51,867 bases of DNA from an uncultured Bacteroidia bacterium (GTDB taxonomy: Bacteria; Bacteroidota; Bacteroidia; Bacteroidales; Prolixibacteraceae), in the NCBI GenBank assembly GCA_903918045.1, contig CAIXCY010000143.1:1-51867 (forward strand). The letters run 5' to 3'. The position numbers and the translations under genes were made by a program. Position 1 is the stretch's first letter. Each line of letters opens with the position of its first letter. The notes below the pieces were generated by a model. The model had not been told where the DNA came from and ran no database searches. It saw only the letters and a program-made list of their open reading frames with translations. Of the stretch, positions 20,973 through 43,988 are shown piece by piece.

Positions 20973-22580
20973 ATGTATAGGACCTTGCTAATTGTAATCT
21001 TCAGCACTGTAGTTGCTTTGATTCTGGTTAATATTCTTCATCAGGAAGATAACTACAATCTTAAACTGGAGACTCTCCGGCACAAGTATGCCTTAAAAGC
21101 TATTCCTTCTGTTAGTCACAGTAAACTTCCTGCGTTGCAACGAAATTTTAAGACACCTCAGGAGGTGACCGAAGCTTGTCTTTCATGTCATACTGAAACG
21201 CATAAAGAGGTGATGGCCTCCTCACATTGGAATTGGGAGCGTGTTGCTTATGTCGAAGGTCGCGGAATTTCTTCAGCAGGGAAGAAAAATGTGATGAATA
21301 ATTTTTGTCTCGGAACAAATTCAAACCAACAATCATGTGCAAAATGCCATATTGGTTATGGTATGTCGAGCAGTCATTTTGATTTTAACAATGCCCGAAA
21401 TGTCGATTGTATGGTTTGCCATGATAACAGTGATGAGTACCTTAAGGGAGCTTCCATGGCAGGCTATCCCGACCGTACCGTAAATCTTGAAAACGTAGCA
21501 CAGAGTGTCGGCTCACCGCGCAAAAGTAATTGCGGTTCATGCCACTCCTTTGGCGGTGGTGGAAATAATGTGAAACATGGAGACCTTGAGGTAGCCTTAA
21601 ACTCCTGTAGCCGTGAAGTTGATGTTCACATGGGGGCAAACGGAATGAACCTTGAGTGCGTGGCATGTCATACCGCTAAAAATCACAATATTATTGGCAG
21701 GTTGTATTCCGTTTCTTCCGATAATACGAACAGGGCTACCTGTGAACAGTGTCATTCAACTACTCCTCATCTTCGGGATGTCCTCAATCGTCACGGTTCA
21801 CGAGTATCGTGCCAGGCATGTCATATTCCTCAATATGCCAAGGTGAATTCAACAAAAATGTCCTGGAAATGGTCTGATGCCGGAAAACTGAAAGATGGTA
21901 AGCCCTATGAGTTGGAGGACTCCCTGGGAAACCATAATTATATGTCGATTAAAGGCTCTTTCGTTTGGGCACGAAATGTCAAACCCGACTACATCTGGTT
22001 TAACGGAACAGCTGATCACTATATTCTGGGAGATTCAATTAAATCGGTACCGGTGCAAATGAACACTTTAAACGGCTCATACAGTGACCGGCGCTCAAAA
22101 ATTATTCCGGTAAAGATTCATGTGGGAGACCAGATTTACGATAAGGTTTACAATCGACTGGTTCAGCCAAAACTATATGGAGAGACTGAGGGGGATAGCG
22201 CCTACTGGAAAGATTTTAAGTGGGACGATGCTGTGGCAGCCGGGATGAAAGAGTCTGGCCTTCGTTACAGCGGAAAGTATGGTTTTGTCAAGACTAAAAA
22301 AATGTACTGGCCTGTAAATCACATGGTTTCACCTAAGGGGGAAGCGGTTGGCTGTGCAGAGTGTCATACCCGTATTAATGGGCGTCTGGCTAAATTGTCC
22401 GGGTTTTATCTGCCAGGGCGGGATCAGAATAAATCACTCGATTTTGTGGGTTACTGGATGTTTATTCTCACTTTAGTTGCTGTTTTCGGCCATGGTGCAA
22501 TTCGCATTTCAATGGATATTTCCAGAAATAAATACGAAAAGCAGATCATCAACTATGACGAGGATAAACCTGCCGAATAA
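20973..22580 (+). CDS. octaheme c-type cytochrome (OTR-like)
   Basis: 535 residues with eight CXXCH haem sites: His73, 126, 150, 191, 233, 261, 284 and 465. An N-terminal helix (residues 3-21) and a C-terminal helix (492-510) anchor it to the membrane with the haems outside. The eight-haem count, the wide gap before the last haem and the YLK/Lys-rich region suggest the octaheme tetrathionate reductase family, known from Shewanella to reduce tetrathionate, nitrite and hydroxylamine in vitro. It is first in a tight operon with a cytochrome b (25 bp) and two YeeE/YedE genes, so a sulfur oxyanion substrate is likely. Haem attachment genes are not in the window. Confidence 0.85.
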   Translation: MYRTLLIVIFSTVVALILVNILHQEDNYNLKLETLRHKYALKAIPSVSHSKLPALQRNFKTPQEVTEACLSCHTETHKEVMASSHWNWERVAYVEGRGISSAGKKNVMNNFCLGTNSNQQSCAKCHIGYGMSSSHFDFNNARNVDCMVCHDNSDEYLKGASMAGYPDRTVNLENVAQSVGSPRKSNCGSCHSFGGGGNNVKHGDLEVALNSCSREVDVHMGANGMNLECVACHTAKNHNIIGRLYSVSSDNTNRATCEQCHSTTPHLRDVLNRHGSRVSCQACHIPQYAKVNSTKMSWKWSDAGKLKDGKPYELEDSLGNHNYMSIKGSFVWARNVKPDYIWFNGTADHYILGDSIKSVPVQMNTLNGSYSDRRSKIIPVKIHVGDQIYDKVYNRLVQPKLYGETEGDSAYWKDFKWDDAVAAGMKESGLRYSGKYGFVKTKKMYWPVNHMVSPKGEAVGCAECHTRINGRLAKLSGFYLPGRDQNKSLDFVGYWMFILTLVAVFGHGAIRISMDISRNKYEKQIINYDEDKPAE

Positions 22581-22605
22581 CAAGAGTGTCAATTAAATAA
22601 TAAAT

Positions 22606-23265
22606 ATGCAACAAAATATGCACAAGGTATATATTTATAAACGATTTGAACGATTCTGGCATTGGGTTCAGGCCTCCCTGATCATGTTTCTGGCGTTAAC
22701 TGGTTTTGAGGTTCATGGTACTTTTAAGATATTTGGTTTTGAGAAAGCTGCCGAATTTCATCGGACAGCCTCCTGGATGCTGATCGGACTAATCATTTTT
22801 GCTATTTTCTGGCACCTCACAACTGGTGAATGGCGACATTATATCCCAACGACCAAACAATTGAAGGAGCAGGTCATCTATTACATCTCAGGAATATTCA
22901 AAGGGGAACATCACCCGACTGAAAGAACCGGACTTAGTAAATTGAACCCATTGCAACGAATTGTTTATTTGGGTTTTAAACTGATACTTGTCCCAATAAC
23001 CATTATCTCGGGGATCCTTTATTTGCTGTATAAAACCTTTGATCAAAACAACATAATTATTATCGAAGATTATCCTTTGGCATCTATCGCATTCTGGCAT
23101 ACGCTTGGAGCCATACTGCTTATGATATTTCTTGTCGTTCATGTCTATATGACAACAACCGGCAAAACTCCCACCTCAAATATAAAGGCGATGATCACCG
23201 GATATGAAGAGCTTGAAGATGATCAGGAGGAGGTTAAAGTCGAAAACGATTCAAAACATAATTAA
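22606..23265 (+). CDS. membrane cytochrome b561-type electron donor
   Basis: 219 residues with four membrane helices and the His pattern of di-haem cytochrome b subunits: RFWHWVQ (helix 1), EFHRTASW and IFWHLTTG (helix 2), then AFWHTLGAILLMIFLVVHVY (last helix). It should take electrons from menaquinol and pass them to the octaheme cytochrome. The C-terminal 20 residues are acidic and cytoplasmic. The start could also be Met5 (MHKVYIYKRFER). It lies 2 bp ahead of the next gene. Confidence 0.85.
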   Translation: MQQNMHKVYIYKRFERFWHWVQASLIMFLALTGFEVHGTFKIFGFEKAAEFHRTASWMLIGLIIFAIFWHLTTGEWRHYIPTTKQLKEQVIYYISGIFKGEHHPTERTGLSKLNPLQRIVYLGFKLILVPITIISGILYLLYKTFDQNNIIIIEDYPLASIAFWHTLGAILLMIFLVVHVYMTTTGKTPTSNIKAMITGYEELEDDQEEVKVENDSKHN

Positions 23266-23267
23266 TC

Positions 23268-23786
23268 ATGAAGGGACAGAAATATATGAACCCTTACCTG
23301 GCTGGATTTTTATTAGGTCTGGTTTTATTGGGAACAATCTATGTTACAGGGCGAGGTCTGGGAGCCAGCGGTGCAGTAAAAAGTGTCGTTCTCTCAACTG
23401 TTGTAAAAGTAGCTCCCCGACATGTAGCCAATACCCCTTTCATTAAATCTTATAGCGAGGAGCATCCTGATGGCCCTTTGAAAGACTGGCTTGTTTTTGA
23501 AGTGATAGGCGTGATTATCGGTGCTTTTTTCTCAGGTGTAATTTCAAATCGGGTTGGTATCAAGTTGGAAAGGGGACCTAATATTACCAATAGAACCAGG
23601 ATTATTGCCGCTATCATCGGTGGTGCATTCTTTGGGTTTGGATCTCAGTTAGGTCGAGGCTGTACCAGCGGTGCCGCCCTTAGCGGGATGGCTGTGATGT
23701 CGTTTGGGGGGCTGATTACGATGGTTGCAATTTTCGGATCGGGTTATGCATTTGCCTGGTTCTTCAGAAAACTTTGGTTAAAATAA
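23268..23786 (+). CDS. YeeE/YedE family transporter subunit (first half)
   Basis: 172 residues with about four helices. It carries the YedE/TsuA signature GRGCTSGAALSG near residues 140-151; the Cys is the one needed for thiosulfate passage in characterised TsuA. The loop between helices is longer than usual (VVKVAPRHVANTPFIKSY). It is half the length of a full YeeE and pairs with the next gene, which has the second Cys motif. The location after an octaheme cytochrome suggests thiosulfate or a related oxyanion as substrate; this is inference. Confidence 0.85.
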   Translation: MKGQKYMNPYLAGFLLGLVLLGTIYVTGRGLGASGAVKSVVLSTVVKVAPRHVANTPFIKSYSEEHPDGPLKDWLVFEVIGVIIGAFFSGVISNRVGIKLERGPNITNRTRIIAAIIGGAFFGFGSQLGRGCTSGAALSGMAVMSFGGLITMVAIFGSGYAFAWFFRKLWLK

Positions 23787-23791
23787 GTGAT

Positions 23792-24988
23792 ATGGGACCA
23801 TTAGTACCTTTTATGATCAGCAATGAGTTTAATCTGATCATTGCTTTGATTGCCGGAATCGGGTTCGGTTTTGTACTCGAACAGGCAGGATTCTCCTCTA
23901 CCAAAAAACTTGTCGGGTTGTTTTACGGGTATGATTTTACCGTGTTAAAAGTATTTTTCACAGCTGGTGTAACTGCCATGATTGGTGTTTTATGGCTCGC
24001 CCATTGGGGATTACTCGATTTAAGCCTGATCTATATCAATCCAACGTTCCTGTGGTCTGCACTCCTCGGAGGTGCAATTATGGGCATCGGATTTATTATC
24101 GGCGGATTTTGCCCCGGTACCAGTATCTGCGCAGCATCAATCGGTAAACTTGATGGTCTGGCTTTTGTTTTTGGAGGCGGTCTGGGGGTTATTTTCTTTG
24201 CCGAAGGATATCCACTGGTTAAGAATATATACCTTTCAGAAGCCTGGGGCGGCGTTCTGATGAACGAAATGCTCGGTATGTCGAAAATCATGTTTGCCGT
24301 TCTTCTTACTGTAGTAGCATTCATCGCTTTTTATCTAACCGGACTCTTGGAGAATCGTGTGAACAGAGTACCTACTGCTGTTAATAAAAGAAAAAGAGCT
24401 ATCTATGCTTCAGCTATTGGATTTGCTCTCCTTTTATTAGCAGTAATTGCATTTTTCCCGGATAGTAAAAACCGGATGGAGGCCCGTATTAACAAAACAG
24501 TCATTCAAAAAGATTTTACCTCTGCTTCTGTTCCTGCTGATCAACTCGCAAGTGACATTGTAAATAACTATTACCGGATCAATATAATAGACGTAAGAGA
24601 TACAGCTGCATTCAGGGCCTACCACCTCCCATTTGCAATCAATATTCCCTATGAGATAATGGCTGACAGGCGGTGGGGTAAAATTCTGGATCAGAAGCAC
24701 AAGGTCAATTATTTTTATGCCGATGATAAACAGATTGCAGCAAAGGCCTATTTATTGGCCGGCTATTTGGGTAATGCTGAAAATTATATTCTTAACGGAT
24801 CGGCAGTTAACTTTCATAAATTGTTTTCCAATCTGACCCCTCCCGGGGTGGAGGCCAATAAAAGTGAAATCGACACCTACAATTTCAGGCAGAAGTCGGC
24901 CACAGAAATGAAGATACTGGTTGATGCGCTTAAGAACTCATCAGAACCTGTAATCGCGAAAACCACAAAGATTAAGGGGGGGTGCTAG
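23792..24988 (+). CDS. YeeE/YedE transporter half fused to an inactive rhodanese-like domain
   Basis: 398 residues if started at the ATG after the previous stop (23792); a start at 23774 would overlap the previous gene by 13 bp. Residues 1-230 are a membrane transporter with GGFCPGTSICAAS, the second conserved Cys motif of the YeeE/YedE family. Residues about 255-370 form a rhodanese-like domain (NIIDVRDTAAFRAYHLPFAINIPYE) whose active loop reads YADDKQIA in place of a Cys loop, so no sulfur transfer is expected. The two genes together equal one full transporter. Confidence 0.85.
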   Translation: MGPLVPFMISNEFNLIIALIAGIGFGFVLEQAGFSSTKKLVGLFYGYDFTVLKVFFTAGVTAMIGVLWLAHWGLLDLSLIYINPTFLWSALLGGAIMGIGFIIGGFCPGTSICAASIGKLDGLAFVFGGGLGVIFFAEGYPLVKNIYLSEAWGGVLMNEMLGMSKIMFAVLLTVVAFIAFYLTGLLENRVNRVPTAVNKRKRAIYASAIGFALLLLAVIAFFPDSKNRMEARINKTVIQKDFTSASVPADQLASDIVNNYYRINIIDVRDTAAFRAYHLPFAINIPYEIMADRRWGKILDQKHKVNYFYADDKQIAAKAYLLAGYLGNAENYILNGSAVNFHKLFSNLTPPGVEANKSEIDTYNFRQKSATEMKILVDALKNSSEPVIAKTTKIKGGC

Positions 24989-25129: not shown

Positions 25130-25690
25130 ATGACGACAATGAATAATTCCCCAAAATTCAAAGGATTTACTCTAATTGGAATGCCAACGATAAAGAATCC
25201 GATAATTATTAGTAATGAAGAATATGAAGCAATTCGATTGTGCGATTTGGCGCTTTTGAATCAGGTTGAAGCGGCTAGAATAATGAAGATCTCTCGCCCG
25301 GCTTTTACCCGAATTTATCGAAGTGCAAGGCGCAAAATTGCCGAGACATTTGTTTTGGGGAAAAGCCTTCTTTTTCAGGGTGGGAGTGTTCACATCGACA
25401 GCTATTGGTATTCTTGCCGGGGTTGTGGGAGTTTTTTTAACCAGATTGAAAAAGAAGGGGTTATAAAAAATTGCACCTTGTGTGGATCGGCAGATATTGA
25501 ACAATACAAAGAAAATTCAACTCGAAAAAAGGTAGTGCAGATCTGTGTTTGTCCAAAATGTGGTTTTGAAAAGATTAAATCACTTGGTATTCCATGCAGA
25601 AATGAAATATGCACTGATTGTAATTGTCAGATGATGCGAAAAGGAACATCGCATTATAACAGAATTATAAATTCGAAAAAAAAACAATAG
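25130..25690 (+). CDS. DUF134 regulator (first copy)
   Basis: 186 residues. Residues 15-85 are the DUF134 domain with a sigma-70 region-4-like helix-turn-helix (EEYEAIRLCDLALLNQ, EAARIMKISRPAFTRIYRSARRKIAE), which binds DNA. Residues 100-180 add two zinc-ribbon-like Cys groups (CRGCGSFFNQ... CTLCGS, and CVCPKCGF with CRNEICTDCNCQMM). The basic N-terminal RPK motif of the second copy is missing. DUF134 proteins sit with NifX-like and MBL genes in anaerobes and are probably regulators. The second copy is at 26184. Confidence 0.83.
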   Translation: MTTMNNSPKFKGFTLIGMPTIKNPIIISNEEYEAIRLCDLALLNQVEAARIMKISRPAFTRIYRSARRKIAETFVLGKSLLFQGGSVHIDSYWYSCRGCGSFFNQIEKEGVIKNCTLCGSADIEQYKENSTRKKVVQICVCPKCGFEKIKSLGIPCRNEICTDCNCQMMRKGTSHYNRIINSKKKQ

Positions 25691-25723
25691 GAATAAGTAT
25701 TAGCTCACTCAGAAGTTAATTTT

Positions 25724-25745
25724 AATACTTTTATGGAAAGTATAT
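25724..25745 (+). terminator. weak AT-rich hairpin after the first DUF134 gene
   Basis: ATACTTT pairs with AAAGTAT across a TATGG loop and is followed by ATTTT. Short and AT-rich; only tentatively a terminator. Confidence 0.3.
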
Positions 25746-25843
25746 TTTAGTATTTTTATACTTGCGAAATAGTCCACCGGGGGATTATTACTTTTCAGTT
25801 GAATTAATTAGGGGCAACTAATAAACGACTGTTATTTTCCCGT

Positions 25844-26059
25844 TTAAACATGATGGATACCATGTTTAAACATTAAAACAACAAGTAATACAAATGAACT
25901 AATTACCAGAATGATCCCGAAATAGGAATAAAATGTGTTAAAATAAGCGGCGCTGGCATTACAATAATTTGAAATACAGCCAAGTACAACCATAATTAGC
26001 CAATCAATAAAAAGGAGAATCGGAAGAAAAACCAGAAACCGTAAAATTATTTGTTTCAT
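25844..26059 (-). CDS. small two-helix membrane protein
   Basis: 71 residues with a basic start (MKQIILRF), a first helix at about 8-28, a loop (NYCNASAAYFNTFYS) with Cys28 and Cys33, and a second helix at 46-64, ending KHGIHHV. It is divergent from the second DUF134 gene, whose control region it shares. No family recognised, so the function is unknown; the two His near the end and the Cys pair could bind a metal. Confidence 0.6.
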   Translation of the reverse strand: MKQIILRFLVFLPILLFIDWLIMVVLGCISNYCNASAAYFNTFYSYFGIILVISSFVLLVVLMFKHGIHHV

Positions 26060-26134
26060 AGTAAGAAGGTATTAAGTGCTTTTAAATTTCAATACTCATC
26101 AATTCTTACAAATATAAGGTATAGCAATAATAAT

Positions 26135-26178
26135 AACAAGCAAATGCTCATTATTATTTTAACAAGCAAATGATCATT
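26135..26178. promoter_or_regulatory. two copies of palindrome B in the DUF134 control region
   Basis: AACAAGCAAATGCTCATT (26135-26152) and AACAAGCAAATGATCATT (26161-26178) are 26 bp apart centre to centre. The second ends 5 bp before the DUF134 start codon, over its ribosome-binding region. This suggests autoregulation by the DUF134 protein. Confidence 0.65.
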
Positions 26179-26183
26179 ATAAA

Positions 26184-26759
26184 ATGCCCAGACCGAAACG
26201 CATACGCAGAATGAATAATCCCCCGCATTTTAAGGGATTCAGCCCTATGGGGATAAGTGAAGAGAACCATCCGGTAGTTATAAATTTTGAAGAGTATGAA
26301 GCCATTCGTTTGAGCGATTTTGAGTTTCATGGCCATGTTGAAGCCGCCCAAATCATGGGGGTTTCGAGACCCACCTATACCCGTATTTATGAAAGTGCCA
26401 GGCGCAAAGTGGCGGAGGCATTTGTGCAGGGAAGAACGATTGTTTTCGAAGGTGGGAAAGTCTATTTTGATAGTGAATGGTATTCGTGCAACAGTTGTGG
26501 CTGTTGGTTTAATCATACCGAAAAGGGGCAGAAGATTGATCAATGTACCCTTTGCGGTTCAACGGATATTGAGCAATATTTCGATAATTCGCAAAATCCT
26601 GTGAATGAGGATCGGTGTGTTTGTCCAAACTGCGGAAGCGAAACTGTCCATCTCCCGGGAACACCATGTAAAAATGAAATTTGTCCCGCCTGTAAATGTC
26701 AGATGATTCGAAGGGGGGCACCTTTTAATCAGGGATCAGGAAACAATAATTGCAATTAA
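26184..26759 (+). CDS. DUF134 regulator (second copy)
   Basis: 191 residues with the basic opening MPRPKRIRRMNNPPHFKGFSPMG, then the DUF134 HTH (EEYEAIRLSDFEFHG, EAAQIMGVSRPTYTRIYESARRKVAEAF). Downstream are zinc groups CNSCGCWFNH, CTLCGS, CVCPNCGSE and CKNEICPACKCQMIRRG. It is a close paralogue of the 25130 gene, with conserved spacing throughout. It is the first gene of a four-gene unit with a NifX-like protein, a ferredoxin and an MBL hydrolase. Two palindrome B sites precede it. Confidence 0.88.
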   Translation: MPRPKRIRRMNNPPHFKGFSPMGISEENHPVVINFEEYEAIRLSDFEFHGHVEAAQIMGVSRPTYTRIYESARRKVAEAFVQGRTIVFEGGKVYFDSEWYSCNSCGCWFNHTEKGQKIDQCTLCGSTDIEQYFDNSQNPVNEDRCVCPNCGSETVHLPGTPCKNEICPACKCQMIRRGAPFNQGSGNNNCN

Positions 26760-26774
26760 CGAAATTAATGAGCT

Positions 26775-27092
26775 ATGAAAATTGCTATCACTTCAACAGG
26801 AAATAGCCCGGAGGCAAAATTAGACAGTCGCTTTGGCCGGTGTTCGTTTTTCGTCATTTACGACACCGTAAGTCACTCCACCGAATTTATTCCCAACCCA
26901 TACATTGAAAATATTGAAGGGGCTGGACTGGCTTCTGCAAACTTAATTGCATCCAAAGGTGCTGAAAAAGTAGTTTCCGGTGAGTTTGGCGCAAAAGTCA
27001 AATCACTTTTCGACAGTATGAAAATTAAGCTGGTCATATTAAAAGACCCGGAAAAAAGGATAAATACAATTATTGAATTATTGAACCATTAA
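26775..27092 (+). CDS. NifX/NifB-type cofactor-domain protein (second copy)
   Basis: 105 residues, starting MKIAITSTGNSPEAKLDSRFGRCSFFVIYD with the RFGRC motif of the Fe-Mo cofactor fold, then GAGLASANLIASKGAEKVVSGEFG. It is a minimal single domain with no Cys-rich tail, unlike the 19705 copy. It follows DUF134 by 15 bp and precedes a ferredoxin by 10 bp. It likely binds or carries a metal cluster; the client is unknown. Confidence 0.88.
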   Translation: MKIAITSTGNSPEAKLDSRFGRCSFFVIYDTVSHSTEFIPNPYIENIEGAGLASANLIASKGAEKVVSGEFGAKVKSLFDSMKIKLVILKDPEKRINTIIELLNH

Positions 27093-28316: not shown

Positions 28317-28562
28317 ATGGAAGATAATTTGGAAGTAAAGGAAAAGCCATCAACAGGAAAAGAGTTTCTTAAATCATCGAATTTTTGGAAACCATTTTTG
28401 GGAATAGCCCTCGGAGGTATCGGGGGATTTTTGTATTATCACTATGTGGGATGCTCATCCGGCAGTTGTGCCATCACCGGGAATCCTTTTATGAGCACGG
28501 CTTATGGGAGTATGCTGGGTCTTTTTCTGGTGAAAAGCCCGTGTAGCAATGGCAAATGTTAA
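28317..28562 (+). CDS. DUF6132 family small membrane protein (second copy)
   Basis: 81 residues: a charged start, SSNFWKPFLGIALGGIGGFLYYHYVG (first helix), CSSGSCAITGNPFMS loop and second helix YGSMLGLFLV, ending SPCSNGKC. Unlike the first copy it has extra Cys in the loop (Cys50 and Cys55 approximately). It opens a unit with a thioredoxin lipoprotein (19 bp away), radical SAM and thioredoxin reductase genes, so a role in thiol or metal redox chemistry at the membrane is plausible. Function unknown. Confidence 0.8.
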   Translation: MEDNLEVKEKPSTGKEFLKSSNFWKPFLGIALGGIGGFLYYHYVGCSSGSCAITGNPFMSTAYGSMLGLFLVKSPCSNGKC

Positions 28563-28581
28563 ATCTTTAATTTATCATAAA

Positions 28582-29049
28582 ATGAGAACGATTATTCTGT
28601 CATTAACTCTTGGCTTTTCACTACTTTTGAGTGATTGCAGCGCCGGGAATCCCGATAAAACAAAAGAGAGCAGCGGAACCCCTAAATCCGAAGCTGTAAT
28701 TGTGATGACCAACGAAATTTTTAAACAAAAGGTTTTCAATTACGAAGTCAATAAGCAGTGGAAGTTCGAAGGGAATTTGCCTGTCATCATTGATTTTTAT
28801 GCAACCTGGTGTGGCCCTTGCCGGCAACTATCCCCCCGGGTTGAGGAAATTGCGAAAGAGTATGCCGGAAAAATAGTCGTTTACAAGGTTGATACCGATA
28901 AGGAGCAAGCATTGGCGCAGAGCATGGGAATTTCAAGTCTCCCAACGTTATTGTTTATCCCTGTTAAAGGGCAACCTCAGGCTTCGATGGGTGCTGTGCC
29001 TAAAGAGACATTGGTCAAGGCTATAAGTGATATTTTATTAGTTAAATAG
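28582..29049 (+). CDS. lipoprotein thioredoxin
   Basis: 155 residues from the ATG at 28582, which gives a lipid signal (LLLSDC, Cys19); the longer frame from 28549 only adds polar residues and overlaps the upstream gene. The thioredoxin domain has ATWCGPCRQL with the CGPC active pair, the GISSLPTLLF cis-Pro loop and a standard fold. It is exported, so it acts on proteins or small disulfides outside the cytosol. The radical SAM gene starts 4 bp later. Confidence 0.88.
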   Translation: MRTIILSLTLGFSLLLSDCSAGNPDKTKESSGTPKSEAVIVMTNEIFKQKVFNYEVNKQWKFEGNLPVIIDFYATWCGPCRQLSPRVEEIAKEYAGKIVVYKVDTDKEQALAQSMGISSLPTLLFIPVKGQPQASMGAVPKETLVKAISDILLVK

Positions 29050-29053
29050 TTGC

Positions 29054-30379
29054 ATGTATTTCTCTAAACACAATATTTTCTCCAAAATAAAGGATTCTGA
29101 CAATTTCTTCATTGTCAACTCCCTGAGCGGGAATGCTGATATTCTGACACCGGAGGATGCTGAGAAAGTATTGAAAATTAAGAGTGGTGGAGTTGTTGCA
29201 GACGACCGTTTAACCGTCGAATTACAGGAGAAAGGTTACATCGTTGATGAAGCCGAGGAGCGGAAACTCTTCAGGCTCAAATATCTTGATTTTCTTGATA
29301 CCCGTGATCAGGATGAGATCCAACTGTTTTTCGTACCCAATTACAGCTGCAATTTCGCATGTTCCTACTGTTACCAGGACGAATATGCCCCCTCGAAAGG
29401 GGAGTTAACAACCGAAATCATCGATTCATTCTTCGATTATATCGGCAAAGAATTTGCCGGCAAGAGGAAATATATCACCGTTTTCGGCGGTGAACCGCTG
29501 ATGAATTCTCCGCGTCAGAAAGAGAGTATTTCTTACCTTCTTAAAAAGGCAACTGAAGCCAGGCTTGAGGTATGTTTTGTTACCAATGGTTATACATTGG
29601 TCGAATACATCGATATTCTCCGGCAGGGAATCATCCGCGAAATTCAGATTACCATGGATGGGACCGCTTCGGTTCATAATGCCCGCCGGTTCCTTAAAGG
29701 GGGAGGTGGGACTTTCGATAAAATTGTTGCCGGTGTTGATGCCTGCCTTGAAAATAACCTCACGGTTAATTTGCGAATGGTCATTGACAAAGAGAATATT
29801 GGAAACCTTTCTGATTTAGCCCAATTTGCCAGTGATAAAGGGTGGAGTTCAAGCCCATTCTTCAAAACCCAGATCGGCCGAAATTATGAATTACACCATT
29901 GCCAGTCGGCAGAAAATAAGCTTTTTAGTCGTATTTCGCTCTATGAGGAGTTGTATGCCCTAACGAAATCCAATCCTCACATCCTCGAATTTTATAAACC
30001 GGCCTATTCAATCTCGAAGTTTCTTGCTGAGAATGAGAGCATGCCTGATCCGCTGTTTGACTCCTGTCCTGCCTGTAAAACAGAATGGGCATTCGATTAT
30101 ACCGGCAAAATTTATCCCTGTACGGCTACTGTAGGTAAATCAGACGAAGAATTAGGTACCTTTTATCCGGAGATCACCCTCAAAAAAGATCTGGTCGATA
30201 TGTGGGAGGTGCGCGACGTGACCTCAATTCCCGAATGCAAAGCATGCAGTATGCAATTAGCCTGCGGTGGCGGTTGCGGGTCAGTGGCAAAGAATACGCA
30301 TGGAACGATTTGTTCAACAGACTGCCGACCCATAAAGGAGTTACTCGAACTGGGTTTTGGGGCTTATTTTAATGAATAG
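29054..30379 (+). CDS. radical SAM/SPASM protein, peptide-maturase type
   Basis: 441 residues. Residues 1-85 are a small alpha/beta region that could be a peptide-recognition (RRE-like) domain. The radical SAM motif C99-X3-C103-X2-C106 (YSCNFACSYCYQ) is followed by a GGEP-type motif (TVFGGEPL). The C-terminal SPASM domain has CPACKTEWAFDYTGKIYPC, and CKACSMQLACGGGCGSV, then CSTDCRP, for two more 4Fe-4S clusters. Such enzymes modify peptides or proteins (sactipeptide, quinohemoprotein or sulfatase types). No classical precursor follows. It lies between two thioredoxin genes. Confidence 0.88.
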   Translation: MYFSKHNIFSKIKDSDNFFIVNSLSGNADILTPEDAEKVLKIKSGGVVADDRLTVELQEKGYIVDEAEERKLFRLKYLDFLDTRDQDEIQLFFVPNYSCNFACSYCYQDEYAPSKGELTTEIIDSFFDYIGKEFAGKRKYITVFGGEPLMNSPRQKESISYLLKKATEARLEVCFVTNGYTLVEYIDILRQGIIREIQITMDGTASVHNARRFLKGGGGTFDKIVAGVDACLENNLTVNLRMVIDKENIGNLSDLAQFASDKGWSSSPFFKTQIGRNYELHHCQSAENKLFSRISLYEELYALTKSNPHILEFYKPAYSISKFLAENESMPDPLFDSCPACKTEWAFDYTGKIYPCTATVGKSDEELGTFYPEITLKKDLVDMWEVRDVTSIPECKACSMQLACGGGCGSVAKNTHGTICSTDCRPIKELLELGFGAYFNE

Positions 30380-33287: not shown

Positions 33288-34841
33288 ATGGAACACATTG
33301 ATTTTTCGCTTGTTGATTGGTCGCGGGCACAATTTGCCCTAACGGCGCTTTACCATTGGCTTTTTGTCCCGCTGACGCTGGGACTTTCGTTTATTATTGC
33401 ATTTATGGAGACCCTCTATTACCGGACGGGGAATCCTGAATGGAAACGGATTACCAAATTCTGGATGACCCTTTTTGGCGTTAATTTTGCCATAGGGGTG
33501 GCTACCGGCATCATTCTGGAATTTGAATTTGGCACTAACTGGTCCAATTATTCGTGGTTTGTTGGGGATATCTTTGGCGCTCCGCTGGCCATCGAAGGGA
33601 TTATGGCCTTCTTTCTGGAGAGTACCTTTATTGCCGTGATGTTTTTCGGATGGAATAAGGTTAGTAAGCGGTTTCATCTGGCCTCAACCTGGCTTGTGGC
33701 AATTGGCTCAAACCTCTCAGCGCTATGGATACTTGTAGCAAATGCCTGGATGCAGTATCCTACCGGGATGCGTTTTAATCCCGACACGGCCCGCAACGAG
33801 ATGGTCAATTTCTGGGATGTCCTGTTTTCACCCGTTGCCATAAATAAGTTTCTGCATACTGTCTTTTCAGCCTATATTTTGGCTGCCATCTTTGTTGTTG
33901 GCGTAAGCGCCTGGTTTCTGCTTAAAAACAGAGAGCAGTTATTTGCAAAACGAAGCATGAAGATTGCAGCAATCTTCGGTCTGGCAGCATCATTTTTAAC
34001 AATAGTTACCGGCGACGGATCGGCCCGGAATATGGCGAAGTACCAGCCTATGAAATTTGCCGCGATGGAAAACCTGTATGTCGGACAGCAGAGTGCGCCA
34101 CTTGTTGCCATAGGATTACTTAAAGAGGATAGTAAAGAGACGCTACATAAAAAACAGGATTTTCGGTTTGAAATAGAGATTCCAAACATGCTCTCTTACA
34201 TGGCTTTTCTGGATCCAAATGCGTATGTGCCTGGCATTAAAGATCTTGTTCATGGGAATCCCGAGCGGAATATTTTATCCATTAAGGAGAAAAGCGAGAA
34301 GGGGAAGATTGCCATCCAATCGCTTGCGGCTTACAGGAATGCTAAAAAGGCCAATAACGATACACTTGCAAAGAGCTCATTGGCCAGTTTTGAAATTAAT
34401 TACCCCTATTTTGGTTACGGTTATTATGCAGGAAGGGATGAGCATGAATTGATCCCCAATATCCCGTTAACTTTTTATTCGTTCCGGATTATGGTTGGTT
34501 TGGGATTCCATTTTATTGCATTGTTACTGGTTGTTTTGATTCTGATTCGAAAGAATTTACTTGAGAAAAAACGATTTATCCTTTACACGGCACTCTGGAC
34601 AATTCCTTTGGCTTATATTGCCTCTGAACTGGGTTGGATAGTCGCCGAAGTGGGGCGTCAACCCTGGGTGATCCAGGATATCTTACCCACCATTGCGGCC
34701 GTTTCCCAAATACAGCCTGCTTCGGTTCAAATCACTTTCTGGCTCTTCTTTGTGCTGTTTACCGGTTTGCTGATTGCAGAAATTAAGATTATGATTTCGC
34801 AGATCAAAAAAGGACCTGCTCCTGAATCTTCTGAAATTTAG
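33288..34841 (+). CDS. cydA: cytochrome bd ubiquinol/menaquinol oxidase subunit I
   Basis: 517 residues, multipass. The start RAQFALTALYHWLFVPLTLG has the haem b595 His (His23). GWIVAEVGRQPW is the Q-loop/haem motif region, and the protein ends in a membrane helix. With subunit II it reduces oxygen to water with quinol electrons at high affinity. This oxidase type is resistant to sulfide. The Q-loop is short, as in Bacteroidota. Confidence 0.95.
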   Translation: MEHIDFSLVDWSRAQFALTALYHWLFVPLTLGLSFIIAFMETLYYRTGNPEWKRITKFWMTLFGVNFAIGVATGIILEFEFGTNWSNYSWFVGDIFGAPLAIEGIMAFFLESTFIAVMFFGWNKVSKRFHLASTWLVAIGSNLSALWILVANAWMQYPTGMRFNPDTARNEMVNFWDVLFSPVAINKFLHTVFSAYILAAIFVVGVSAWFLLKNREQLFAKRSMKIAAIFGLAASFLTIVTGDGSARNMAKYQPMKFAAMENLYVGQQSAPLVAIGLLKEDSKETLHKKQDFRFEIEIPNMLSYMAFLDPNAYVPGIKDLVHGNPERNILSIKEKSEKGKIAIQSLAAYRNAKKANNDTLAKSSLASFEINYPYFGYGYYAGRDEHELIPNIPLTFYSFRIMVGLGFHFIALLLVVLILIRKNLLEKKRFILYTALWTIPLAYIASELGWIVAEVGRQPWVIQDILPTIAAVSQIQPASVQITFWLFFVLFTGLLIAEIKIMISQIKKGPAPESSEI

Positions 34842-34867
34842 CTATAAACAATTTAAAAATATGAATC

Positions 34868-36040
34868 ATGTTTGAAACATTTTCACATATCCTGCTTCAG
34901 CAATACTGGTGGATCATCGTATCGCTGCTTGGAGCAATTCTCGTTTTCCTGATGTTTGTTCAGGGTGGTCAAACCCTTATTTATACCCTTGGCAAAACAG
35001 AGGACGAACGGACTATTTTAGTTAATCTTCTTGGGAGAAAATGGGAGTTTACCTTCACAACACTGGTTACCTTTGGCGGAGCCTTCTTCGCCTCGTTTCC
35101 ACTGTTTTACTCCACAAGTTTTGGGGGAGCTTACTGGGTCTGGATGCTGATTCTGATTGCATTTGTTGTTCAGGCTGTTTCGTATGAATACCGTCAGAAA
35201 CCCAATAATTTTCTGGGGAAACGAACCTATGAAACCCTTTTGTTTATCAATGGCTTATTGGGTACGGTCCTGATTGGTACTGCGGTCGCAACTTTTTTTA
35301 CCGGCTCCGAATTTTCAGTCGACAAAATGAATCTGACCTTGCTCACCGGAAATAAAATGCCAATAATTTCAGAATGGAAGGGGCTCGCAAATGGTTTGGA
35401 AGCGGCATTCAATCTCCAAAATCTGAGTTTGGGATTAGCAGTCTTCTTTTTGTCAAGGGTTTTGGCTTTACTTTATTTTATGAACAGAGTCCGAAATACT
35501 GAGATTATGGTCAGGGTGCAGAAACACCTGCTATATAATGCCATCCCATTTGTTGTTTTCTTCCTCACATTTGTAATCTGGCTGATGTTATCTTCAGGGT
35601 TTGCAGTTGATCCTGCAACAGGCATCGTTTCCATGGAGTCGTTCAAATATTTTCATAATCTGATTGCAATGCCTGTTGTGGCTGTTCTTTTGCTACTGGG
35701 TGTTGCAATGGTACTGGTGGGAATCATCCGGCCGCTTACCTGTTTTGTAAAGTGCGGAACCAAAGGGATCTGGCTTTCGGGAATCGGGACCATTCTTACA
35801 GTTTTTTCATTGCTGCTTTTGGCAGGATTTAATAATACAGCTTATTACCCATCGACATTTGATCTGCAGAGCTCCTTAACGATTCAGAATAGTTCATCGA
35901 GTCATTACACCTTAACCGTGATGAGCTATGTGTCGTTAATGGTTCCATTTGTGATTGCCTATATCTTTTATGCATGGCGATCAATCGACAACAAAAAAAT
36001 GGATATTGAGGAGATTCAATCAGAGTCGCATGTTTATTAA
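34868..36040 (+). CDS. cydB: cytochrome bd oxidase subunit II
   Basis: 390 residues with about nine helices. The N-terminal QQYWWIIVSLLGAILVFLMFVQGGQTL contains the pattern typical of CydB; GGAYWVWMLILI lies near the middle. The length matches the family (about 340-390). It is 26 bp after cydA and makes the second half of the heterodimer. It is followed by a convergent terminator. Confidence 0.92.
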   Translation: MFETFSHILLQQYWWIIVSLLGAILVFLMFVQGGQTLIYTLGKTEDERTILVNLLGRKWEFTFTTLVTFGGAFFASFPLFYSTSFGGAYWVWMLILIAFVVQAVSYEYRQKPNNFLGKRTYETLLFINGLLGTVLIGTAVATFFTGSEFSVDKMNLTLLTGNKMPIISEWKGLANGLEAAFNLQNLSLGLAVFFLSRVLALLYFMNRVRNTEIMVRVQKHLLYNAIPFVVFFLTFVIWLMLSSGFAVDPATGIVSMESFKYFHNLIAMPVVAVLLLLGVAMVLVGIIRPLTCFVKCGTKGIWLSGIGTILTVFSLLLLAGFNNTAYYPSTFDLQSSLTIQNSSSSHYTLTVMSYVSLMVPFVIAYIFYAWRSIDNKKMDIEEIQSESHVY

Positions 36041-38360: not shown

Positions 38361-40637
38361 ATGGAAAAAATTATAATCATTGGTGGGGTTGCCGCCGGAG
38401 CAACAGCAGCAGCAAAGGTAAGACGTATTTCGCCGACTGCTGAAATCATCATGCTTGAAGCGGGACCGGATATCTCGTTTGCGAATTGCGGGTTACCCTA
38501 TTTTATCGGGGGGGATATCAAGAGCCGGTCGAAACTGATCCTCCAAAGCCCCGAAAGCTTTAAAGAACAGTACGATGTTGAAGTACACATCCATACCATT
38601 GTATCGTCAATTGACAGGATGGCTCATCAGGTGAAAACCATGGACACACGTAGCGGAGAGCAGAAGACTTTTGAATATACAAAGCTAATCATGGCTCAGG
38701 GTGGCCGGCCCATTACGCCAACCTTGCCCGGAGCAGATCTTGATCATGTCTTCACCCTCTGGACGCTTGAGGATATGGATAAGATCTCATACCATCTGAA
38801 CGAGAAAAAACCCAAAACGGCAGTAGTCGTTGGTGGCGGATTCATTGGTCTTGAGATGGTTGAGGCCTTGGTTAAACGAGGTCTGAAAGTAAATGTGGTT
38901 GAGATGATGCCTCATGTAATGGCCCTTATGGAAGCTGAGACTGCCGGATATATTGAGAATGAACTCCTTTCATATGGTGTCGGTATCCATACCGGCGCAG
39001 GAGTAACCCAGATCATGCCCCATTCGGTAAAACTGGACAATGGAAAGATCCTTGAAGCTGATATGGTCCTCCTTTCGATAGGTGTTCGCCCAACACTCCA
39101 GCTTGCAAAAGAGGCGGGACTCGAAATTGGGGAAGCGGGTGGTTTGCTGGTCAATTCACAATTACAGACCTCTGATCCAGATATTTTTGCCGCTGGAGAT
39201 ATGGTTGAAATTGAACACCGCGTGAATGGTAAGAAAGTCCGTATTCCATTGGCTGGACCTGCAAACCGTCAGGGTCGTATTGCAGCTGAAAATGCCCTTG
39301 GCGGAAATCACAATTATAAAGGGGCCATTGGAACTTCAGTGGTTCGCGTTTTTGAAGCTGTGGCAGGAACTACCGGGCTTTCGCTCAAGCAAGCCCGCGC
39401 TGCCGGAATGGATGCAGATGCAGTCGTTGTCCATAAGGAACACCATACTTCTTATTATCCCGGTGCCGAAACGGTTACTACAATGCTGATTTACGACCGC
39501 AATACAGGAATTATTCTCGGTGGTCAGACTGCCGGATATAAAGGTGCAGATAAACGACTGGATGTAATAGCAACTGCAACTGCGGCAAAATTGACGATCA
39601 GTGATCTGGCAGATATTGATTTTGCCTATTCACCCCCAATTGGAACGGCAAATGACGCAGTGAATATGGCGGCTTACACCGCCGAAAACCGGATTTCGGG
39701 TTTCAGCCCTTCGGTTACCGTTACTGAACTGGATGATTTCATCGATGGAAAGAATCCCGTCTTTGTGGATGTGCGTGATGTTTTTGCTTTTCAGAAAAGC
39801 CATGTCAAGGGTGCAGTCCACATACCTCTTGAAGTGTTGCCGCAACAAATCAAAACCATACCTGCCGGTCATCCGGTAATCATTTACGATGAAACCGGAA
39901 AAAAAGGGCATCAGGCGCTACGTACCTTATTGGGTGCAGGTTTTAAAGAGGTTACCAATATTTCGGGAGGGCATACCTCCTTACAACGGCAGGCACGCAC
40001 GACTGGATTTAAACATTTGAAAATAGATCTCTTACCTGTTGTGCTGAAAACGTTAGAGGAAGAAGTATCAAAGGAAGCAGATAAGACTACAGAAAAGGCG
40101 GTTGCTGATAATTCCCCAATTATTGTCGATGTGCGTACTCCACATGAATTTCAATCAGGCGCTTACCCTGGAGCGGTAAATATTGAGCTTGATGAATTAA
40201 TGGAACGGTATGGTGAACTGGGAACTAATAAATCACGTGATATCGTAGTTTATTGCGCCTCGGGTGCCCGTTCGGCTTATGCCCAGCGGATGCTGGCTCA
40301 GATAGGTTACGCCAATGTTCGGAATGGCGGTGGTATCGCGGCAATGATGGCCCAGCGAACCACAAAGCCTGTTGCACCAACAGTTTCAAATGAACCAATC
40401 ATTGTAGATGTCCGCTCAACAGAGGAATTTTCTGGGGGTGCTTACCCAGGGGCAATTAATATTCCGGTGGATGAACTTCAGCATCGGATTGGTGAACTGG
40501 GTAGTAAGTCCAGAGAGATCACGCTCTATTGTGCTTCCGGGGCACGATCGGGTTACGGTCAGCGGGTGCTGCAACAGTTTGGTTTTACAAATGTAAAAAA
40601 TGGTGGGGGATTGATGCAGATGATGATGCGCAGATAA
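38361..40637 (+). CDS. CoA-disulfide/persulfide reductase-like flavoprotein with three rhodanese domains
   Basis: 758 residues. Residues 1-450 are a FAD/NAD(P)H flavoprotein with FAD motif IIGGVAAGATAAAK and Cys43 in FANCGLPYFIGG, the redox Cys of CoA-disulfide reductases; NAD motif AVVVGGGFIGLEM; then AAGDMVEI. Three rhodanese domains follow: about 455-545 (VDVRDVFAFQKSH, active loop YDETGKKG, no Cys), about 585-665 (YCASGARS) and about 675-758 (YCASGARS). The last two are alike and probably arose by tandem duplication. Known relatives carry one rhodanese domain and reduce CoA-persulfide or polysulfide. It heads a five-gene unit. Confidence 0.9.
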   Translation: MEKIIIIGGVAAGATAAAKVRRISPTAEIIMLEAGPDISFANCGLPYFIGGDIKSRSKLILQSPESFKEQYDVEVHIHTIVSSIDRMAHQVKTMDTRSGEQKTFEYTKLIMAQGGRPITPTLPGADLDHVFTLWTLEDMDKISYHLNEKKPKTAVVVGGGFIGLEMVEALVKRGLKVNVVEMMPHVMALMEAETAGYIENELLSYGVGIHTGAGVTQIMPHSVKLDNGKILEADMVLLSIGVRPTLQLAKEAGLEIGEAGGLLVNSQLQTSDPDIFAAGDMVEIEHRVNGKKVRIPLAGPANRQGRIAAENALGGNHNYKGAIGTSVVRVFEAVAGTTGLSLKQARAAGMDADAVVVHKEHHTSYYPGAETVTTMLIYDRNTGIILGGQTAGYKGADKRLDVIATATAAKLTISDLADIDFAYSPPIGTANDAVNMAAYTAENRISGFSPSVTVTELDDFIDGKNPVFVDVRDVFAFQKSHVKGAVHIPLEVLPQQIKTIPAGHPVIIYDETGKKGHQALRTLLGAGFKEVTNISGGHTSLQRQARTTGFKHLKIDLLPVVLKTLEEEVSKEADKTTEKAVADNSPIIVDVRTPHEFQSGAYPGAVNIELDELMERYGELGTNKSRDIVVYCASGARSAYAQRMLAQIGYANVRNGGGIAAMMAQRTTKPVAPTVSNEPIIVDVRSTEEFSGGAYPGAINIPVDELQHRIGELGSKSREITLYCASGARSGYGQRVLQQFGFTNVKNGGGLMQMMMRR

Positions 40638-40682: not shown

Positions 40683-41849
40683 ATGAAACAAGTTTTAATT
40701 TTAGGAGGTGGTTTTGCGGGCATTCAAACAGCCATCGAATTGCAGAAAAGCGGTAATTTTAATGTGACGCTTGTTTCTGAGAGGGATTATCTCTATCTCT
40801 TTCCGATCTCTATCTGGATTCCGGTCCATAAGAAGGAGTTAGACGATGTGAAGGTTCCAATCGCAAACATTCAGAAAAAGTACCCTTTTAAACTGATCGT
40901 TGATAAAGTTAGTCAGATTAAGGGTGGTGAAAATACGGTTATCTGTGAAAATCATACTTTAAGCTTTGATTATTTAGTGGTTGCCTTTGGTTCTGAGAAG
41001 ATGGTTCATAAAGGAATTAGTAACACCTTGTCAATCTGTGCTAAGCCTGAAATGGCTCTGGAGATCCGTGCTAAAATTGATGCATTGGTTCAAAAAGGGG
41101 AGGGGCGGATTGCCATGGGTTTTGGTGGAAATCCGAAAGAGAAATCAGCCGTGCGTGGCGGCCCTGCCTTTGAGTTGATGTTTAACATTCACAATTACCT
41201 GAAGAGTAAAAAGATCAGGCAGAATTTTGAGCTTACCTTCTTTGCCCCGATGGATGAGCCGGGGGCAAGAATGGGCAAGGGGGCGCTGGTAATGCTCGAT
41301 AAGATGTTTACTAAATATGGGATCAATAAGAGGTTCGGTAAAAAGATTAAAGAGTTCGAAAGTGACGGGGTTGTTTTTGAAGATGATTCAAAACTGGAAT
41401 CCGATTTTACGATGTTTATCGCCGCGGGTGCAGGTCCCGTTTTATTGAAAGAATCAGATCTCCCATTATCCGAAGGTGGATTTATTAAGATCGATAATTT
41501 TTGCCAGGTAAATGGCTACCCGAATATTTTTGCCGTTGGCGATATTGCAGCCTTTGAAGGGCCGGAATGGATAGCCAAGCAGGGCCATATTGCTGAACTA
41601 ATGGGGCGCAACGCCGCTTTTAATATCCTCGGCATGGAAAATGGAACACCGAAACGGAAAGGGTATCAGGAGCATCTGAATATTTTATGTGTGATGGATA
41701 CGGGTGATGGGGCTGCCTTTGTTTTCAGAAATGGTACAAAGGCGTTTATTATCCCTATGCCTGTTGTAGGGCACTGGATGAAAAAAGGTTGGGGAGTCTA
41801 TTCAAAGCTCACCAAAGTGGGGAAATTCCCACGGTTACCTGGGTTATAA
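40683..41849 (+). CDS. SQR-like FAD-dependent oxidoreductase
   Basis: 388 residues. FAD motif LILGGGFAGIQTAIEL at the start, the second FAD motif region YPNIFAVGDIAAFEGP, and a C-terminal membrane-binding tail (MKKGWGVYSKLTKVGKFPRLPGL). Cys lie at LSICAKP (about 118), NFCQVN and NILCVMDTGDGAAF. The layout resembles sulfide:quinone reductases and related NDH-2-like enzymes, but not all three catalytic Cys can be placed. It is 9 bp ahead of a membrane ferredoxin, so it may pass electrons to the quinone pool or ferredoxin. Confidence 0.75.
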   Translation: MKQVLILGGGFAGIQTAIELQKSGNFNVTLVSERDYLYLFPISIWIPVHKKELDDVKVPIANIQKKYPFKLIVDKVSQIKGGENTVICENHTLSFDYLVVAFGSEKMVHKGISNTLSICAKPEMALEIRAKIDALVQKGEGRIAMGFGGNPKEKSAVRGGPAFELMFNIHNYLKSKKIRQNFELTFFAPMDEPGARMGKGALVMLDKMFTKYGINKRFGKKIKEFESDGVVFEDDSKLESDFTMFIAAGAGPVLLKESDLPLSEGGFIKIDNFCQVNGYPNIFAVGDIAAFEGPEWIAKQGHIAELMGRNAAFNILGMENGTPKRKGYQEHLNILCVMDTGDGAAFVFRNGTKAFIIPMPVVGHWMKKGWGVYSKLTKVGKFPRLPGL

Positions 41850-42840: not shown

Positions 42841-42858
42841 TTTATTAATCATTTAGTT

Positions 42859-43377: not shown

Positions 43378-43397
43378 AGAACGAATCTGCAAATCGA

Positions 43398-43578
43398 AAA
43401 AGGTACAGCGTACCGCAAGATTTGTAGAAAAGATGAACTACCGTTGTTTGGAGGTACAGCGTACCGAAATATTATTCCTACTTAAACATATCATCAAAGA
43501 AGATATTGCGGTGCGCTGTACCTGCTTCGAATACAATTTATTCCAGTTCTACAAATATAAACGGTGCTCTGCACCTTT
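43398..43578. mobile_element. MITE-like element with nested GTACAGCGTACC repeats
   Basis: Four copies of an inverted-repeat unit: AGGTACAGCGTACCG at 43401 and 43455, and its reverse-complement forms GGTGCGCTGTACC (43510) and GGTGCTCTGCACC (43563). The outer ends are complementary over about 30 bp, including TTGTAGAA at the inner side. No gene. It explains most of the 311-bp gap 43378-43688; the rest is AT-rich. Confidence 0.55.
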
Positions 43579-43688
43579 GAAACTTTAAAGTCAATTTAAA
43601 AGTGTAATAAAGGAGTTTTAATGCCACATCATGCAGCATATTAATTTCAGTGCACTTGCCCTGCAATCCTCCTAAATACGATATATCC

Positions 43689-43988
43689 ATGAAAGCAACT
43701 TTTGAATCAATCATAAACGACACGAAGCCGGTCATCGTTGACTTCCATGCCTTATGGTGCGGCCCCTGTAAAGCACAGTCCCCCATTCTAAAGGAGGTTG
43801 CGGCAGAATATGGGGAGCGTGTCCGGGTCATAAAAATTGATGTCGATCAGAACCCGGTGGTTGCTGGTCAGTATCGCATTCAGAGTGTTCCTACCCTGAT
43901 TGTTTTTAAGAGTGGACAAATCGTCTGGAGGCAATCGGGCGTTGTAAGTAAAAGTCAGCTGGCTGGCATTTTAAAACAACAACTATAA
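43689..43988 (+). CDS. thioredoxin
   Basis: 99 residues from the ATG at 43689; the 43650 start adds residues not seen in thioredoxin. Standard cytosolic thioredoxin: ALWCGPCKAQSP, KIDVDQNPVVAGQYRIQSVPTLIVFKSG and a normal length. It is preceded by a MITE-like element and is 37 bp before the methyltransferase. Confidence 0.92.
   Translation: MKATFESIINDTKPVIVDFHALWCGPCKAQSPILKEVAAEYGERVRVIKIDVDQNPVVAGQYRIQSVPTLIVFKSGQIVWRQSGVVSKSQLAGILKQQL

Follow-up and report, generated by a model that had tools for sequence, protein, structure and literature searches.

A split YeeE transporter with a Gly-Gly-Cys-tailed rhodanese beside an octaheme cytochrome c: a candidate sulfur-respiring module with an exchanged reductase

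Octaheme cytochromes c of the tetrathionate reductase family (OTR) tend to be annotated in metagenomes as tetrathionate or nitrite reductases. In our judgement, it is poorly settled both what OTR does physiologically and how elemental or polymeric sulfur gets to respiratory reductases. Both questions are raised by a 51,867-nucleotide stretch of DNA from an uncultured Bacteroidia bacterium (Bacteroidales, Prolixibacteraceae; GCA_903918045.1), here called the window, which is contig CAIXCY010000143.1 (C143) of a genome of 5.36 Mb in 281 contigs (98.8% complete, 3.99% contaminated). It carries an OTR gene followed by genes for a cytochrome b (CYTB), one half of a split YeeE/YedE transporter (YeeA), and the other half fused to a rhodanese domain (YeeB-Rho). 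What does this group of genes do, and how much of its surroundings belongs to it? A sequence-only reading had placed it within a single sulfur/persulfide redox system of about 23 kb (20973-43988). The genes listed there are present, but they form at least two separate things, the OTR core and a module around a radical SAM enzyme. The core is a real, widely conserved sulfur module, and what makes it interesting is the tail of the rhodanese and a swapped reductase, rather than how many genes were listed. Loci, genomes, and contigs are denoted below by L, G, and C followed by a number.

The core operon comprises only four open reading frames (ORFs), listed in Table 1. The close spacing described in the sequence-only reading was confirmed, with gaps of 25, 2, and 5 bp; YeeB-Rho starts at a conserved Met at 23792 or possibly at an upstream TTG at 23774, in which case the last gap becomes an overlap. 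The octaheme cytochrome c was likewise borne out by a family match above the cut-off and eight CxxCH motifs; the protein has a hydrophobic stretch at both its N- and C-terminus. The cytochrome b beside it has the b561 Pfam match expected from its earlier naming. It also matches the model of the thiosulfate reductase cytochrome B subunit (PRK15006), below the cut-off, and may act as a quinol dehydrogenase. The YeeE pair is indeed split, its members matching opposite halves of PF04143 and the second also holding the rhodanese domain. Each half carries one conserved cysteine, C132 in YeeA (invariant in the 33-row alignment A2) and C113 in YeeB-Rho (invariant in alignment A1).

A scan with YeeB-Rho, using one genome per species, gave 112 confirmed candidates, the best 80 of which were taken as related loci. 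Many of these stem from metagenome-assembled genomes (MAGs), in which binning errors are possible; the closest named relatives by YeeB-Rho identity were Prolixibacteraceae/Bacteroidia MAGs. OTR was present in 68 of the 80 loci, and the gene order was OTR-CYTB-YeeA-YeeB-Rho in 67; L055 has the same genes with the cytochrome b placed last. A conserved neighbourhood in other genomes, which the earlier reading had proposed as its check, thus exists for the four-gene core. Going by their record names, the hosts of the 80 loci include members of Bacteroidota, Ignavibacteria, Neomarinimicrobiota, KSB1, Acidobacteriota, and Armatimonadetes/Chthonomonadia, as well as one MAG each of Leptospiraceae and Caldithrix. 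In seven loci (L095, L101, L106, and L108-L111), a gap of about 1.1 kb separates the cytochrome b from YeeA, which in the four inspected (L095, L101, L106, and L108) is filled by a double-rhodanese gene with a GGC end. Three of the 12 loci without OTR (L038, L045, and L086) begin inside the YeeE genes, and the other nine (L089-L092, L096, L097, L100, L102, and L105) have genes of the molybdoenzyme (Mo) type instead, identified either as ORFs or by sequence matches.

Two features of YeeB-Rho go beyond the earlier reading, its Gly-Gly-Cys C-terminus (...KIKGGC) and the lost catalytic Cys of its rhodanese domain. The fused or separate rhodanese ends in GGC, or in GGC plus one residue, in 74 of the 80 loci. 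Four of the six remaining loci are cut by a contig end (L081, L084, L092, and L103), L107 has the tail in another frame, and L052 has no tail. In A1, which consists of the window and 41 of 64 candidate rows, G402, G403, and C404 are invariant, compared to P286 alone within the rhodanese domain; because L052 was among the rows left out, the invariance of the tail is slightly overstated. GGC is likewise invariant in the separate rhodaneses (A3, 20 rows picked from tailed ones). The set of 1,281 closed ORFs of at least 100 amino acids (aa) from loci L119-L247 contains 159 tailed members, which in a first round were 158 of the 191 rhodanese-like ORFs and one of the 1,090 others.

At the column of the catalytic cysteine, the 64 fused tailed copies have Ala (42), Gly (12), or Ser (10) and in no case Cys, and the fused rhodanese is apparently catalytically dead. 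Similarly, the catalytic Cys is absent from 138 of 146 separate single-domain tailed rhodaneses and present in eight; these sets were selected by presence of the tail. Double-domain rhodaneses have at least three Cys after residue 30 in 28 of 29 cases. In an AlphaFold2 model of YeeB-Rho (mean predicted local distance difference test score, pLDDT, of 73.4), the rhodanese domain reached about 90, the last ten residues stayed below 50, and the membrane half was poor. Foldseek matched this rhodanese to rhodanese-fold entries with a best E-value of 7.7e-4. The model of a separate rhodanese (eight rows, mean pLDDT 63.7) is weak, with residues 153-209 below 50, which fits a disordered tail. We take the YeeB-Rho tail to be disordered and flexible. 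In YeeB-Rho, Lys and Arg residues cluster before the final membrane helix, and the separate versions start with a hydrophobic anchor; judged by eye from these sequences, the rhodanese domain is probably periplasmic.

The tails match their operon. In the 45 loci with at least two tailed rhodaneses, the two residues before GGC and any residue after it were identical in 53 of 71 within-operon pairs (shuffled control: mean 2.6, maximum 11). Tail identity within a locus was 0.90 at position -1, 0.86 at -2, 0.37 at -10, and 0.10 at -25, versus 0.26, 0.20, 0.13, and 0.10 at the same positions between loci. A 70% filter removed none of the 45 loci; it compared only the first tailed protein per locus, so that near relatives such as L207 and L208 may both count. 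Recent duplication or gene conversion was rejected as the cause of this likeness, since the rhodanese bodies within operons are 21-38% identical (median 32%) and the codons differ. The same codon was used for identical tail residues at a frequency of 0.57 within and 0.49 between loci, and for the two Gly at 0.37 and 0.31, respectively; given this difference in codon use, the likeness is held mainly at the protein level.

Fourteen genomes contain two such operons. Their tails agreed in nine of 14 pairs within an operon and in two of 25 between operons (both in G016), and in the genome of the window IKGGC stands against AGGGC in its other operon. This matching is best accounted for by an operon-specific shared partner. 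Some other proteins can bind metals through a C-terminal Cys tail, and the Gly-Gly-Cys end could be a sorting, anchoring, or metal-binding signal and not a sulfur arm. We consider this improbable, as the tail is nearly confined to rhodaneses in the loci examined and a cell-wide signal should agree across operons, where the tails of one genome mostly differ. A genome-wide sorting signal was rejected as less likely on the latter ground.

The genes beside the module were surveyed in 295 genomes of the order, with a threshold of E 1e-15 for YeeA. YeeA was found at 126 places in 119 genomes, and OTR above its cut-off in 69 copies in 63 genomes. Split YeeE accompanies OTR in 55 of the 63 OTR genomes, versus 119 of 295 overall (odds ratio (OR) 18, p = 4.5e-18); odds ratios and p values here and below ignore kinship. 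An OTR gene is found no more than 8 kb from 33 of the YeeA places; it shares the strand of YeeA in 28 cases (at a distance of up to 2.3 kb in 26 of these) and lies on the opposite strand in five. At 80 of the other 93 places, MoA, FeS, or NrfD genes of the polysulfide reductase (Psr, PSR) or thiosulfate reductase (Phs) kind were found, with all three subunits in 77 of these stretches; this count was made over the 93 places away from OTR, and one of the three subunits at any position of a fetched stretch sufficed. What stays the same is the half made up of split YeeE and rhodanese, whereas the reductase is exchanged between OTR and a Psr/Phs-like molybdoenzyme. A quick tree of YeeA plus YeeB, in which 47 of 147 inner branches are open, shows at least three changes between the OTR and Mo partners. 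Its 155 rows (63 OTR, 81 Mo, nine with none, and two with both, L040 and L042, relabelled OTR) contain own-genome rows as duplicates (L113, L115, and L173; L114 and L116). Both relabelled loci carry another YeeA, about 4 kb beyond the point where the OTR-type module ends on that contig; Mo-type genes were found close to this copy.

The genome of the window holds both versions, the OTR type on C143 and a second split YeeE on C82, where it follows a Psr-like molybdoenzyme and is accompanied by two GGC rhodaneses. In the PDB, this enzyme matched 2vpw best (660.8 bits, as against 178.4 for the next entry), along with 2vpx-2vpz; the deposition bears the name thiosulfate reductase, and we take it to be the Thermus polysulfide reductase. 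Within this genome, the PhsA model matched only C82 and not the window; PhsA was also the best NCBIfam model of the L090 molybdoenzyme (468.5 bits, below the cut-off of 694). The C82 operon (L173, G000:C82) is followed at 10558-11850 by a FadL/TodX-type outer-membrane protein (Pfam Toluene_X), through which polysulfide or sulfur might enter. Because relatives of the channel and rhodanese have polysulfide/thiosulfate-reductase-like genes nearby, the earlier proposal of a sulfur-compound reductase gains support, whereas its choice between tetrathionate and thiosulfate does not.

The only PDB relative of the window OTR at E 0.001 was 1SP3, the OTR of Shewanella oneidensis, from which we take the residue numbering and the presumed role of the pocket. 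Both have eight hemes, the Lys-ligand motif, and equivalents of N61 and C64. Equivalents of N61, C64, and K153 are kept in all 107 distinct OTR sequences aligned, the window included; the K153 equivalent, judged by sequence position only, is presumably the Lys distal ligand of the active-site heme. The equivalent of D150, a residue whose role we likewise presume, is Asn in 98 of the 107 sequences, as it is in the window, and Asp in seven; Asp150 is not counted as a family-defining feature. The window OTR also differs from that of Shewanella in its fixed neighbours, namely the cytochrome b, the split YeeE, and the tailed rhodanese. OTR could be a nitrite or hydroxylamine reductase with an incidental sulfur-channel neighbourhood, and the Shewanella enzyme reduces both compounds in vitro (PMC7887784; statements cited by PMC number refer to excerpts of those papers). 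The lack of an NrfA match in the window's genome leaves room for nitrite as a substrate. We nevertheless give this reading very little weight, as the position that OTR takes beside the module is occupied in other loci by a polysulfide/thiosulfate-reductase-like enzyme, and as the b subunit of OTR is PhsC-like.

On balance, the core (20973-24988) is probably a module for sulfur-reducing respiration that includes a protein-bound carrier of sulfur, although we favour this only slightly over its being something else. The C-terminal Cys of the Gly-Gly-Cys tail would bind sulfane sulfur in the periplasm as a persulfide, the sulfur coming from polysulfide or being the outer atom of thiosulfate or tetrathionate. 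The tail would swing this sulfur into the reductase, that is, into the Lys-ligated heme pocket of OTR or, elsewhere, to the Mo site of a PsrA-like enzyme. There, the S-S bond would be split with electrons from menaquinol, arriving via the cytochrome b (or NrfD), and sulfide would be released. As the rhodanese is fused to split YeeE or encoded beside it, the same arm may alternatively present sulfur to the channel for cytoplasmic entry. A tailed protein stands beside OTR in four genomes without YeeA at the above threshold (G104, G202, G226, and G287), which favours the reductase as one partner of the tail.

A C-terminal swinging arm, GGCGG, is also found in the sulfur carrier SoxY. YeeB-Rho would share with it a Gly-Gly-Cys near the C-terminus, a mobile arm, and periplasmic sulfur chemistry; it differs in having a rhodanese and not a SoxY fold, a Cys in last or next to last position, and a putatively reductive setting. 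No SoxY domain was matched in YeeB-Rho, where Pfam gave only PF04143 and PF00581, and there is no GGCGG end. Tentatively, and with somewhat less than even confidence, we propose that the tailed dead rhodaneses form a carrier class of their own, reductive yet convergent with SoxY, whose operon-tuned tails would serve two unrelated reductases and a YeeE channel. The substrate of the OTR clade would then be carrier-bound sulfane sulfur and not free tetrathionate or nitrite.

Several observations weigh against sulfur supply by a tail. The window operon has a single tailed protein, and the data on tail matching come from relatives, nearly all of them not linked to OTR. Where OTR stands apart from YeeA (36 copies), the fetched stretch encodes a tailed protein in 16 cases and none in 20 (some stretches are short), so that OTR does not always need the tail. 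At 13 of the 126 YeeA places, neither OTR nor a Mo reductase was detected nearby; in three of these (L138, L149, and L185) the contig stops just upstream, and several others have a double rhodanese nearby. The tail is missing from 33 of the 191 rhodanese-like ORFs of L119-L247. In a looser second round, 159 of 287 rhodanese-like ORFs were tailed and 128 were not (0 of 994 others), the extra untailed ORFs arising because the fusion drew in many YeeB-type membrane proteins. Furthermore, Shewanella OTR is reported to act on free tetrathionate, nitrite, and hydroxylamine (PMC7887784). Caldithrix abyssi has OTR, and growth tests failed to support its predicted sulfur, polysulfide, or thiosulfate respiration (PMC5317091).

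Respiration could also be of the classical kind, with OTR reducing free tetrathionate or thiosulfate, YeeE importing thiosulfate, and the pseudo-rhodanese only binding thiosulfate and passing it to the channel. This would suit the family name of OTR, its relationship to 1SP3, and the import of thiosulfate by YeeE relatives (PMC11582611). It is unlikely in our view, given the tailed rhodaneses near OTR in the four genomes in which no YeeA was found and the PSR/Phs-like partner of most copies, rhodanese-fed supply having been proposed for Psr (PMC12142623).

The opposite direction was considered as well, in which sulfide or sulfane sulfur would be oxidised on the tail and electrons passed to the quinone pool, in sulfur oxidation or disproportionation, with cytochrome bd and a sulfide:quinone oxidoreductase (SQR)-like flavoprotein as neighbours. 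The SQR-like gene is enriched with OTR (11 of 16 genomes; OR 9.6, p = 3.5e-5), and cydAB is close by in the window as well as in L032, L035, and L046, the only ones among the 80 loci with cydA in the fetched stretch. Against this, no DsrA match was found in the window's genome, those PSR and OTR relatives that have been characterised bear the name of reductases, and the part of the neighbourhood with the radical SAM enzyme and thioredoxin reductase belongs elsewhere. We regard an oxidative role as decidedly unlikely.

Elements of the preferred reading, a tail that carries sulfur to a respiratory reductase, have counterparts in described systems. For Desulfurivibrio dismutans, a joint action of Psr, YeeE, and periplasmic rhodaneses has been proposed, in which sulfurtransferases supply both a quinone-linked reductase (PsrABC/PhsABC) and YeeE channels (PMC12142623). 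The sister operon on C82 is of this Psr/rhodanese/YeeE kind, whereas the reductase in the window is a cytochrome. The excerpts of that paper yielded no mention of a C-terminal Gly-Gly-Cys, a lost catalytic Cys, or a YeeE-rhodanese fusion. Clusters 5-T and 4 of Dethiobacter alkaliphilus encode SirA/Otr-like octahemes with rhodanese-domain proteins and are linked to thiosulfate reduction (PMC10376724), so that a multiheme cytochrome paired with a rhodanese has a precedent. These octahemes are only distantly Otr-like (20-23% identity), and no split YeeE or tail was found mentioned in the excerpts. PmpA/PmpB (PMC11582611) are, like the window pair, two half-type proteins with one conserved Cys each; they measure about 130 aa each, whereas the window halves are longer, include a fused tailed rhodanese, and are tied to a respiratory reductase. 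The YTD cluster of sulfur disproportionators also combines a YeeE-type channel with sulfur-transfer proteins (PMC13047784, PMC8780430), but the window operon has no TusA-like match (DsrE was not searched for elsewhere), and the one TusA match of the genome lies on another contig, C273.

In the open-access literature, as far as seen in titles and abstract openings, a C-terminal Cys arm on rhodaneses was not found, and a description in subscription papers is possible; the one paper found to name octaheme tetrathionate reductase, rhodanese, and YeeE does so in separate contexts. The tail and the swapped reductase point to a little-known way of handing sulfur to respiratory enzymes. A tail common to channels, rhodaneses, and two unrelated reductases offers one testable answer to both questions raised at the outset, and a C-terminal GGC on a Cys-less rhodanese provides a simple sequence mark for candidate sulfur-respiring bacteria in metagenomes.

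How much of the surrounding stretch belongs to the core? The single 23-kb system of the sequence-only reading did not hold, because the radical SAM/SPASM enzyme (RSAM) and a thioredoxin-thioredoxin reductase fusion (Trx-TrxR) travel with an ArsM-like gene and not with OTR. The RSAM gene occurs in 34 of the 295 genomes at E 1e-60, and these genomes were not enriched for OTR (eight of 34; OR 1.15, p = 0.82). Twenty RSAM loci, chosen by hand from the 34 genomes with the window's own excluded, contain the ArsM-like gene in 20 cases (within about 4 kb), Trx-TrxR in 18, TRX1 in seven, TRX3 in six, DUF1847 in four, and OTR in one. In the window, the OTR block sits between the ArsM-like gene and the remainder of this second module, and in the close relatives L032 and L039 a larger part of the block stays together. 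The ArsM-like, RSAM/SPASM, and Trx-TrxR set (18630-19274 and 28549-31724) is conserved, sometimes with a thioredoxin between, and mostly has no OTR nearby; the ArsM-like proteins of RSAM loci mostly have Cys-rich C-termini. The set resembles a methylation or modification pathway of the arsenic type that would bring its own supply of reductant.

The other genes named earlier, among them the full-length YeeE, cydAB, Trx-TrxR, and the CoA-disulfide-reductase-like protein with rhodanese stretches, were recovered as family matches, several of them below curated cut-offs, with three weak exceptions (37203, 40683, and 42391). The CoA-disulfide-reductase-like protein is possibly a cytoplasmic sulfur user. 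It and YeeB-Rho stand as rhodanese-bearing proteins; the third, at 42391, is weak, with no Pfam match and one NCBIfam match of 19.7 bits (cut-off 115). From the thioredoxin-fold set, the Trx-TrxR fusion was upheld and the protein at 37203 had no match in Pfam or NCBIfam. The SQR-like flavoprotein belongs to Pyr_redox_2, and its match to the type III SQR model is weak (75.8 bits, cut-off 525).

Table 1. Features of the window, with coordinates, strand, and supporting evidence.
Feature	Coordinates	Strand	Evidence
ArsM-like methyltransferase	18630-19274	+	PRK11873 185 bits, cut-off 263
OTR, octaheme cytochrome c, tetrathionate reductase family	20973-22580	+	TIGR04315 557.6 bits, cut-off 375
Cytochrome b561-type, PhsC-like	22606-23265	+	PF01292 87.9 bits; PRK15006 112 bits, under cut-off 204
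YeeA, split YeeE/YedE half	23268-23786	+	PF04143 positions 175-307 (C-terminal part)
YeeB-Rho, other YeeE half fused to rhodanese	23792-24988	+	PF04143 positions 4-193 and PF00581
Rhodanese domain of YeeB-Rho, about residues 250-386	24521-24931	+	AlphaFold2 pLDDT about 90; Foldseek rhodanese-fold matches
YeeB-Rho tail with Gly402-Gly403-Cys404 end	24932-24985	+	A1 invariance; residues 395-404 pLDDT <50
Radical SAM/SPASM enzyme (RSAM)	29054-30379	+	Family match
Thioredoxin-thioredoxin reductase fusion (Trx-TrxR)	30399-31724	+	Family match
Full-length YeeE/YedE, distinct from split pair	31780-32790	+	PF04143 103 bits
Cytochrome bd oxidase subunits I and II (cydAB)	33288-36040	+	Family match
CoA-disulfide/persulfide-reductase-like enzyme	38361-40637	+	TIGR03385 426 bits, cut-off 578.8; three PspE-like stretches
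SQR-like flavoprotein	40683-41849	+	PF07992 (Pyr_redox_2)

A search of the window for Fnr-type boxes gave two matches (36006 and 38074) versus 2.5 expected by chance, and a promoter scan upstream of OTR gave five versus 2.4 expected. The OTR block is flanked at 25130-27092 and 19660-20563 by two DUF134 proteins, two of the NifX/FeMo-co type, and one DUF1847 protein; relatives of some of these recur near the OTR block in close relatives. Small lipoprotein-like single rhodaneses (167-187 aa) were seen near OTR copies without adjacent YeeA (L224, L226, L227, L229, L230, L234, L238, and L240); they end in VGGC or AGGC, and most keep the catalytic Cys. The small methyltransferase at 44026-44643 has a relative that is 86% identical over the matched stretch near the OTR locus of an Ignavibacteria genome (L064) and a 50% identical relative near L080.

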